From a virus: a DNA stretch of 42,788 nucleotides. The stretch spans positions 1 through 42,788 of IMG/VR virus record IMGVR_UViG_3300030116_001948. The stretch is one strand, 5' to 3'. Below are positions 13,581 through 17,815 of this stretch, piece after piece (the first letter of the stretch is position 1; each line of letters begins with the position of its first letter). The position numbers and the translations under genes were made by a program. The notes beneath the pieces were generated by a model. The model was not told where the DNA came from, made no database searches, and saw only the letters and a list, made by a program, of their open reading frames with translations.

Positions 13581-13980
13581 TAAAGAAATTAAAAGACGAT
13601 TCAAAGAACAAATGACTTGGGCTGGTGAACAGTTAGTATCATGTAAAGACTTAGAATCGTTTGAGTTAAGAGATGCAATAGTCAATAAGAGTATTGATTT
13701 TGCATCAAAAAGATTGGATGATGGTAAGATAAAATACTTACATCAAGTACCAATAACTTTGCAAGAATGTTTAGATGAAAATCGTAACAATTTAGCAGAG
13801 ACAATAGAAGAAGTTATAGATGCATTAATATACATAATAGCTGAGGAGATTTTACAAACTGAGCTTGAATGTGAAATAGCATCTAGATACTTAAATAAAG
13901 CTAACGCATATCTATACTACGCTTTGTTTTTCCTGATGGTAGCAGATATGCATGACAGTAAAGGAAAAGAAAATGAGTAA
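13567..13980 (+). CDS. all-helical protein, possibly MazG-like (137 aa)
   Basis: A 137-aa helical protein. The middle text NLAETIEEVIDALIYIIAEE (about residues 78-97) resembles the acidic helix of MazG-type nucleotide pyrophosphohydrolases, where Glu/Asp residues bind magnesium. The second half (ILQTELECEIASRYLNKANA) is a further pair of helices. The full set of metal-binding residues cannot be confirmed by eye, so this is only a possible match. Alternatively it is an unrelated helical accessory. Its last codons overlap the start of the ubiquitin-like candidate. Confidence 0.6.
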   Translation: MESNNKEIKRRFKEQMTWAGEQLVSCKDLESFELRDAIVNKSIDFASKRLDDGKIKYLHQVPITLQECLDENRNNLAETIEEVIDALIYIIAEEILQTELECEIASRYLNKANAYLYYALFFLMVADMHDSKGKENE

Positions 13981-14299
13981 CGAAGTAAAAGGTGTTGCAT
14001 ACAATAATGGTGATGGTAGATTCGTAAGAAATACTGCCTTCCTAGAAATATTGGGTGCAGATGGTCAGCCTAGATTGACCACAGTGGGTCAGTTCATGGA
14101 GTACTTACGTGAGAACAATGTAAATGTTCCAAGTAATGCACAAATTACTATGAACTTACAAGAGGTAGATGCCACAGCAACTCTTGTACCACAAACATCA
14201 TCTACTAGATCAGAAGATGAAGGGTTTGTATTCTTATCATTTATGAGAGATGATAAGACTGGTGGCAAGATTGCATTTGAAGAATATTTAAGTGCATAA
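13973..14299 (+). CDS. candidate ubiquitin-like modifier with internal Gly-Gly (108 aa)
   Basis: Start is ATG 13973 (MSNEVKGVAYNNGDGRFVRN), preceded by AAAGGAAAAG and overlapping the preceding stop; a longer frame from 13952 is possible. The body alternates beta-like segments (RFVRNTAFLEILGADGQPRL, NAQITMNLQEVDAT, EGFVFLSFMRDD) and one helix (VGQFMEYLREN), compatible with a small beta-grasp fold. Near the end are Gly97-Gly98, followed by KIAFEEYLSA, so a protease could expose a C-terminal Gly-Gly. It directly precedes an E2-like candidate, a JAB protease and an E1-like enzyme, which is the reason for the call. I cannot verify the fold; it could be another small modifier or an unrelated protein. 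Confidence 0.4.
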   Translation: MSNEVKGVAYNNGDGRFVRNTAFLEILGADGQPRLTTVGQFMEYLRENNVNVPSNAQITMNLQEVDATATLVPQTSSTRSEDEGFVFLSFMRDDKTGGKIAFEEYLSA

Positions 14300-14313
14300 T
14301 ACGATGACACAAA

Positions 14314-16291: not shown

Positions 16292-17165
16292 TAAGAATGA
16301 TTGGAATAAAGTAATCAATTACTCAAAGTATGCTTGGGATGAGCATGGTTCTGAGATAGGTGGTTATATGGTAGTAATTAAAGAAGATGATGAGTTTATC
16401 ATAAAAGAGCCAGTGATATTAGAACAAGAAATATCAGCAGGTAATACCGTGATAAAGAAAGAAGCACTTGCAAAGTATCAACAGAAAGCAGCAATGCAAC
16501 ATGGTACAGATGTATACTTTTGTTGGTGGCATAGTCATCATACTATGAGTGCTTTTTGGTCTGGTACAGACTTAAATGCTATTCAACAATCAAGACATAG
16601 TGATGTATCTTTTAGTCTAGTTGTTAACCTTAAAGAAGAATATTTGTTTAGGGTTAGCATCTGGGAACCTGTAGAAGTACATGTAGATGTTGCGATTGAA
16701 ATACAAGGTAAAGATGATATACCTAAATATATTATCAATGATGTTGAGTCTCTGTGCAGTAAGCCTAAACCTGTTAGTATAGTTAAAACAGGTAGATCTA
16801 AGTATGAATATGGTGGATATGGTTTATCGTACCCAGACAAAATGCAAACAGTTCTTGCCTTAGATACTAAGTCTCAAGACACTGAGCTAGTTAACTTAGA
16901 AGCTAAATTAGATAACATATTGTTAGATTATATATCTAGTAATGATGATTACAAAAAGTATAAATCAAAAGTTAGAAAGCTAAACAAAAGTCTAGAAAAA
17001 GATGGTAGTCAACTTAGAGTTGGTATAGTATCAGAAGAAAATATTGACACAGTAATACATTTTGCAGAAGCAGAAAGTTATATACATCGTGTTGGTTTAC
17101 CTTTTGATGAAGAAGCTATTCTAGAATTACATCAATATAATAAAGCATGGGAGAAGTTCAAATGA
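16275..17165 (+). CDS. JAB/JAMM (MPN) metalloprotease (296 aa)
   Basis: All zinc-site elements are visible: Glu27 in GSEIGGYMVV, then His86-Ser-His88, seven residues, Ser96 and Asp99 (HSHHTMSAFWSGTD). This is the exact H-x-H-x7-S-x2-D pattern of active JAMM isopeptidases, which cleave after ubiquitin-like Gly-Gly ends. The domain covers roughly residues 5-140. The C-terminal 150 residues are helical (YKSKVRKLNKSLEKDG) and of unknown role. The gene overlaps both neighbours (17 bases upstream; ATGA with the E1-like gene), so all three are co-translated. It could also act as a processing or deconjugating enzyme for the small protein at 13973. Confidence 0.9.
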   Translation: MSFKISKNDWNKVINYSKYAWDEHGSEIGGYMVVIKEDDEFIIKEPVILEQEISAGNTVIKKEALAKYQQKAAMQHGTDVYFCWWHSHHTMSAFWSGTDLNAIQQSRHSDVSFSLVVNLKEEYLFRVSIWEPVEVHVDVAIEIQGKDDIPKYIINDVESLCSKPKPVSIVKTGRSKYEYGGYGLSYPDKMQTVLALDTKSQDTELVNLEAKLDNILLDYISSNDDYKKYKSKVRKLNKSLEKDGSQLRVGIVSEENIDTVIHFAEAESYIHRVGLPFDEEAILELHQYNKAWEKFK

Positions 17166-17815
17166 TAGGAACAAGATACAGTGCCATTGTAGATGGTCTG
17201 AATAATCATACTTATCATATCCTTGGTTGCGGTGCTATTGGTAGTGCCGCAGCTACTCAGATAGTTAGAATGGGTGGTGATAATATCAAGTTATATGATT
17301 ATGATGAAGTCAATACAGAAAATATTGGCGTATCAATGTACGGACATAAAGATCTAGGAAGATCTAAAGTTGCAGCATTGAAAGATATGTTGGAGGATAT
17401 TAATCCTTCAGCTAGTATTACAGCATTTAACGAAGAGTTTTTAGAACATGAATGTACAGATAGTGATATTATTGTTTTAGGTTTTGATTCAATGAATGCA
17501 AGAGAGTATGCTGTTAGAAGAGTATTGCAAAAGAAAAGACCATATCTATTGATAGATGGTCGTATGGGTGCAGAACATTATCAACAGTATACTTTTAAGA
17601 ATCCTACTATCAAGCAGTATATGGCTACTTGGTATTCAGATGATGAGGGTAGTGAAGCACCATGCAATGCAAAGGCTACAAGCTATTGCAGTAATATGTC
17701 TGGTAGTTTCATATGTAATTCTATTAAGAAAGTTATTAATGGAGAACCATATCAATCAAGATTCTCTTTTAATTTTCCTAATATGTTACTAAATTCTGAA
17801 GGATTTAATACGTAA
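17162..17815 (+). CDS. E1/ThiF-like adenylating enzyme (217 aa)
   Basis: I place the start at ATG 17162 (ATGA overlap; GGGAGAAG upstream) rather than the in-frame 17147. A Rossmann ATP-binding motif is present, YHILGCGAIGSAA (residues 18-30, G22-x-G24-x-x-G27), followed by LYDYDEVNTENIG (Asp46, Asp48), GRSKV with Lys69, and GFDSMNAREYAV with Asp109. Cys168 (APCNAKATSYC) and Cys176 are candidates for the catalytic cysteine or a metal site. These are the features of enzymes that adenylate the C-terminal Gly of ubiquitin-like proteins (MoeB, ThiF, E1). At 217 aa it holds only the adenylation domain. With the JAB gene next to it, a substrate ending in Gly-Gly is expected nearby. Confidence 0.88.
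   Translation: MIGTRYSAIVDGLNNHTYHILGCGAIGSAAATQIVRMGGDNIKLYDYDEVNTENIGVSMYGHKDLGRSKVAALKDMLEDINPSASITAFNEEFLEHECTDSDIIVLGFDSMNAREYAVRRVLQKKRPYLLIDGRMGAEHYQQYTFKNPTIKQYMATWYSDDEGSEAPCNAKATSYCSNMSGSFICNSIKKVINGEPYQSRFSFNFPNMLLNSEGFNT

Follow-up and report, generated by a model that had tools for sequence, protein, structure and literature searches.

Does a phage that appears to encode a ubiquitin-like modifier (Ubl) together with an E1, an E2, and a JAB protease run a conjugation pathway of its own? What is known of ubiquitin-like conjugation in bacteria concerns mainly anti-phage defence, and the Ubl and JAB genes of phages are familiar mostly from tail assembly, where they occur without an E1 or E2. 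The question is raised by positions 13973-17815 of a 42,788-nucleotide stretch (the window) of the IMG/VR virus record IMGVR_UViG_3300030116_001948, for which a preliminary description made from the DNA had proposed such a cassette. At a probability of roughly 0.7, we take this cassette to encode a reversible pathway of ubiquitin-like conjugation that belongs to the phage itself.

All four open reading frames were confirmed at the positions first assigned, on the plus strand and in the order first proposed: a Ubl precursor of 108 aa (13973..14299), a candidate E2-like protein of 641 aa (14366..16291), a JAB/JAMM metalloprotease of 296 aa (16275..17165), and an E1/ThiF-like adenylating enzyme of 222 aa (17147..17815). 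Overlaps of 17 and 19 bases connect the last three genes. The mechanical open reading frame of the Ubl begins at 13952; we set its start at the ATG at 13973 because its relatives begin at the same MS- position. The 66-base gap between the Ubl and E2-like genes does contain a hairpin, as previously suggested: a 14-bp RNA hairpin on the plus strand (14314..14344; -26.3 kcal/mol for an 86-nt stretch, z -5.4), found in the same position in four close relatives (L003, L015, L006, and L021). A general role for this hairpin was rejected, as it is mainly limited to the close relatives of the window. Upstream, a MazG-like gene (13567..13980, plus strand), recognized by motif and without a Pfam match, overlaps the start of the Ubl gene and is given as context only; a similar gene is also present in phages that lack the cassette. 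The cassette lies in the early region, between this MazG-like gene and helicase/replication genes.

The source record comprises 89,793 bases and consists of two related phages placed end to end and joined near a repeated tail-fibre gene. The second phage and the junction correspond to positions 42700-42788 of the window and the remainder of the record (G000:C1:42700-89793, L189-L191). The two phages share 90% identity in their capsid proteins and 82% in their terminases, and the first was found also as a separate 44,033-base contig. A 3182-aa protein at 22741-32289 of the window had no PHROGs match, and its counterpart in the second phage has 3444 aa and is only about 28% identical.

Searches for further copies retrieved 219 viral stretches with the E1 sequence and 362 with an E1 profile. 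A scan with the E1 across species genomes of bacteria and archaea, 84,980 in all, returned two matches only, both in Bradyrhizobium (L092 and L093) and rejected as partial and weak, and the MoeB of "Acinetobacter phage MD-2021a" (L091) was set aside because it resembles bacterial DNA. In the 80 loci kept, JAB lay directly upstream of E1, followed by a protein of 470-840 aa and then a small protein. Where the sequence of E1-seeded loci reached far enough upstream, JAB was present in 68 of 68, the E2-like gene in 51 of 51, and the Ubl in 50 of 50; for these counts, as for several others based on HMMs, some of the same loci had served to train the models. A Ubl profile built without the window still recovered its Ubl at 4.8e-10; one built without the window's whole close group recovered only four of its members and missed the window. 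An independent test used loci chosen by the terminase large subunit and not by the cassette. All four genes were present in 20 of these loci, none in 7, and a subset in 0. The second phage of the 89.8-kb record likewise has none of the four; its MazG-like gene is followed by a different gene, of 351 aa. Loci with JAB and E1 but no 108-aa protein, named at the outset as an observation that would count against the proposal, were thus not seen in either the E1-seeded loci that extend far enough upstream or the terminase-picked set. The exception to the complete set was an incomplete contig (L025, 1375-3377) with Ubl, JAB, and E1, in which the E2-like gene was not detected between Ubl and JAB. Since presence is all-or-none in the terminase-seeded loci and in the second phage, the cassette is an optional block of the early region. 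As the gene order is also kept in tens of independent viral contigs, the association of the four genes exceeds chance.

Taken singly, the JAB and ThiF-like proteins matched Pfam families above the cut-offs, and the Ubl and E2-like proteins gave no reliable match. The Ubl, at first a weak call, has become a strong one. Gly97-Gly98 (14261-14266) is invariant across 42 aligned homologues and Lys95 is nearly so. In the window, a 10-residue tail, KIAFEEYLSA, follows Gly98 (14267-14296, plus strand). Half of the Ubl relatives (26 of 52) end precisely at Gly-Gly, and the remainder extend 1-10, 31, or 117-126 residues beyond it, with tails that are unrelated; the Ubl of L062, counted as lacking the pair, ends in KGGQ by inspection. 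Thirteen of the 42 family members matched Pfam ThiS (best 1.9e-5), and the only PDB profile matches were MoaD (0.006) and a designed ubiquitin. The AlphaFold2 (AF2) model (pLDDT 81) had ubiquitin-fold proteins as its Foldseek leaders, with the Atg8 family at the top of the list, although these similarities were modest (best E 2.4e-3, TM about 0.4). Purifying selection on Ubl genes is strong, with dN/dS roughly 0.07-0.19 in the eight pairs compared. Judged from its sequence and model, the 108-aa protein is a strong candidate for a beta-grasp modifier whose C-terminal glycine would be exposed by processing. In three loci (L054:2686-3300, L064:2288-2878, and L065:3707-4330), the Ubl continues after KTGG into an additional, fused domain of about 120 aa; that of L064 weakly matched Pfam DUF7303 (E 0.055).

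The JAB and E1 assignments, considered strong from the beginning, held up well. The JAB protein matched Pfam Prok-JAB at 3.6e-8, and its complete JAMM site (E27, H86, H88, S96, and D99) is invariant in 27 homologues. Among solved structures, the nearest to it are Rpn11 from archaea and from yeast, which are of the deubiquitinase type, and it has no NlpC/P60 match in Pfam. The E1 matched Pfam ThiF at 2.4e-23, and its nucleotide-site residues GCGAIGS (27-33), D51, K74, and D114 are invariant. Cys173 (17663-17665, plus strand) is the candidate catalytic cysteine because it aligns in 28 of the 29 E1s compared, which span marine phages, Crassvirales, Fipvunavirus, and PRTRC, and Cys181 does not. 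Among solved structures the E1 matched UBA6, MccB, and UBA5 best and ThiF and MoeB less well, with Cap2 also among the matches; its best NCBIfam model was ThiF.

The 641-aa protein is divergent. It carries an E2-like pattern (HPxI...C...W...PLN) composed of His303-Pro304 (15272-15277), the candidate catalytic Cys337 (15374-15376), both on the plus strand, and the further residues W364, P374, and N376. Across 45 sequences only G23, P304, and C337 are invariant. The family motif reads [HFY]P[YF][IV], 13-38 residues, C[FL][GDS], W, P[LY]N, and its E2-type version spaces HP[YF]I and [VI]C[FL]G by 13 to 38 residues and continues with W and PLN, with Phe or Tyr replacing the motif His in 13 of the 45 members. 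P304, C337, W364, and P374 are kept in 8 additional members outside the training set. Median pairwise identity is 18% for this protein (26 shared loci), compared with 56% for the E1; such fast divergence of the E2-like protein, set against the better-conserved E1, would fit changing targets. The AF2 model (pLDDT 74, with low confidence in the HP-to-Cys stretch) predicts a helix (183-192), four strands (194-201, 205-209, 219-224, and 228-235), the HP and Cys positions, and two helices (339-350 and 354-364), an order that fits a UBC fold.

Neither the protein nor its core had a profile match in Pfam or the PDB, whole-chain Foldseek against the PDB found no fold, and Foldseek against viral models returned only unnamed homologues. 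By hhalign, comparison with PRTRC E2-like sequences was not significant, nor was that with Prok-E2_B, a weak comparison in which several loci were in the wrong frame or strand. The structure predictions and family searches proposed in the preliminary description divide: they placed the Ubl with ubiquitin-fold and ThiS/MoaD proteins, and they connected the E2-like protein to no PDB fold and no E2 family. We consider the 641-aa protein a probable E2, an assignment first made weakly and now raised by the invariance of Pro304 and Cys337, although it lacks the profile or fold match that had been sought.

It is conceivable that this protein is instead another thiol enzyme or an adaptor, and that the Ubl is joined to a nucleotide, lipid, or peptide, as in MccB or Atg8 chemistry. 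The empty E2 profile and fold searches, the presence of MccB among the nearest E1 structures, and the first place of the Atg8 family in the Foldseek list for the Ubl are all in keeping with this idea. However, the HP..C..W..PLN pattern and the succession of helix, four strands, HP, Cys, and helices suit a UBC domain, and the gene order resembles that of PRTRC, whose equivalent gene encodes an E2-like protein. On balance, we regard this alternative as unlikely.

A sulfur-carrier system, in which the C-terminus of a ThiS/MoaD-like Ubl would form a thiocarboxylate that supplies sulfur to a nucleic acid or small molecule and JAB would merely mature the carrier, seems to us quite improbable. ThiS and MoaD are indeed the closest profile relatives of the Ubl, and ThiF is the model with which the E1 scores best in NCBIfam. 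Against this, an E2-like protein with an invariant cysteine is nearly always present, and UBA6, MccB, and UBA5 outrank ThiF and MoeB among the solved E1 matches. Pfam found no rhodanese domain on the E1, and a scan of the ten genes around the cassette gave no Pfam match to rhodanese, ThiG, or MoaE. JAB, moreover, does not occur in the classical pathways for thiamine and molybdenum cofactor (Iyer et al. 2006, PMC1779556).

Bacterial operons combining Ubl, E1, E2, and JAB, as well as the phage TAPI/TAPK pair, were described by Iyer et al. (2006, PMC1779556). Of the known systems, PRTRC (operon type 6d in the same paper) is the closest in layout, with Ubl, E2-like protein, JAB, and ThiF-type E1 encoded by separate genes as in the cassette. 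Its order of alpha-helical, E2-like, JAB, and ThiF genes was observed in L171-L173, and hhalign related the E1 and JAB of the cassette to those of PRTRC with probabilities of 95.8% and 87.1%. PRTRC differs in having a separate alpha-helical gene between Ubl and E2-like, which is missing from the window, where the N terminus of the E2-like protein is itself helical, and in an E2-like protein with a downstream His rather than an upstream HP. Scores also fell short of the NCBIfam cut-offs for PRTRC_A (15.7 of 101.8 bits) and PRTRC_ThiF (25.2 of 144.75 bits). The tail-assembly proteins TAPI (Ubl) and TAPK (JAB-NlpC/P60) of lambda and T1 are likewise a phage-encoded Ubl and JAB, but they lie among tail genes with no E1 or E2 described (PMC1779556), whereas the cassette includes E1 and E2-like genes and sits in the early region.

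PADLOC models of defence systems gave partial matches only for E1 and JAB and none for the Ubl or E2-like protein. In CBASS, Cap2 is an E1-E2 fusion that works with a CD-NTase, and Cap3 is a JAB protease. What the cassette has in common with Cap2/Cap3 is a JAB protease alongside the chemistry of an E1 and a probable E2, but it uses separate genes and a dedicated Ubl, and no CD-NTase was found adjoining it. Bil, too, includes a JAB partner. In Bil, a Ubl is accompanied by E1 and E2 conjugating enzymes, as proposed for the cassette, and is attached to the central tail fibre of the phage (reviewed in PMC12948488); Bil, however, is a bacterial anti-phage system, whereas the cassette resides in phage genomes and its E2-like proteins are of 470-840 aa. 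Because Bil tags the tail fibre (PMC12948488), phages would gain by blocking it, and the accessory, early-region cassette might jam or reverse such a host defence through a decoy tag, competing enzymes, and a deconjugating JAB while tagging no targets of its own, but a decoy needs one or two proteins, and the joint retention of four with intact active sites makes this role very doubtful. In the open-access library covered by our literature searches, no paper was found to describe all four genes as a set borne by a phage.

Related clusters extend beyond the relatives of the window. In the cultured crAss001 (Crassvirales), gp79-78-77-76 follow a gene order identical to that of the cassette, and the same order was seen in other Crassvirales, a bajarodcaudo virus, DAC17, Flavobacterium phage Fpv20, and other viral contigs retrieved with the crAss001 E1, along with fragments in which some genes are split or missing. 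By hhalign, the Crassvirales E1 (2.4e-35) and JAB (5e-11) are homologous to those of the window at the profile level; the Ubl and E2-like proteins showed no such profile link and are alike in pattern and position only. The Ubl of Crassvirales and Fpv20 has a Ubl-like N-terminal domain followed by a conserved K-[IV]-[KR]-S-G, and it differs from that of the window in that it nearly always runs on into a long C-terminal extension and in most cases has one Gly only. Their E2-like protein also has an invariant cysteine, Cys198, with HSH in place of HP. Existing labels for crAss001 gp79-gp76 and the Fpv20 cluster are hypothetical, metalloprotease, or thiamine biosynthesis. In Fpv20 (L088:3674-5966), JAB is split into 117 and 314 aa by an opposite-strand gene of 250 aa, an arrangement like that of an intron or homing endonuclease, and the JAB gene is split in L177 as well. 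Separately, Xanthomonas jumbo phage PhiXhv-16 (L090:1736-5612) encodes a small protein ending in ASGG, an 892-aa protein that contains HPH...LCLG and is rich in Cys at its end, and an E1, with no adjacent JAB; these genes are possibly a second phage system.

Returning to the conjugation pathway, the simplest reading of the cassette, held at the probability given above, is a reversible tag matured by JAB and driven by E1 and E2. JAB would cut off the 10-residue tail of the Ubl, exposing Gly98, which the E1 would adenylate with ATP before binding the Ubl through a thioester at Cys173. From there the Ubl would pass to Cys337 of the E2-like protein, which would join it to an amine, probably a lysine, on a target protein, and JAB might also take the tag off. 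This reading builds on the gene set, its order, the invariant catalytic residues, and the all-or-none inheritance, all of which are observed; from these we infer each reaction step, the E2 fold, and the direction of effect. Three features of the E2-like component count against it, namely the empty profile and fold searches, the 13 of 45 members without the motif His, and the gene not detected in the incomplete contig L025. The lack of a profile link between the Ubl and E2-like proteins of Crassvirales and those of the window, and the overlap between training and counted loci in several HMM counts, weigh in the same direction.

The pathway would probably act on a host or phage protein. Its early-region position and its optional presence among sister phages make host physiology, defence, or early phage functions likelier targets than virion assembly, and the gain and loss of the cassette as one block suggests that these phages attach a protein tag of their own during infection. 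We see about even odds for the wider proposal that at least two phage lineages, one marine and podo-like and the other comprising Crassvirales and Fipvunavirus, run a complete Ubl pathway with a free-standing, divergent E2 and tag host proteins early, perhaps together with Xanthomonas and Erwinia jumbo phages.

Because the cultured crAss001 and Fpv20 carry a related cluster, the question is testable now, and in Crassvirales it can be put to a group that ranks among the most abundant phages of the human gut. A full set in phages would place Ubl conjugation chemistry on the attacker's side, and a phage-run pathway, if this reading is true, would be a viral counterpart of eukaryotic ubiquitin signalling.
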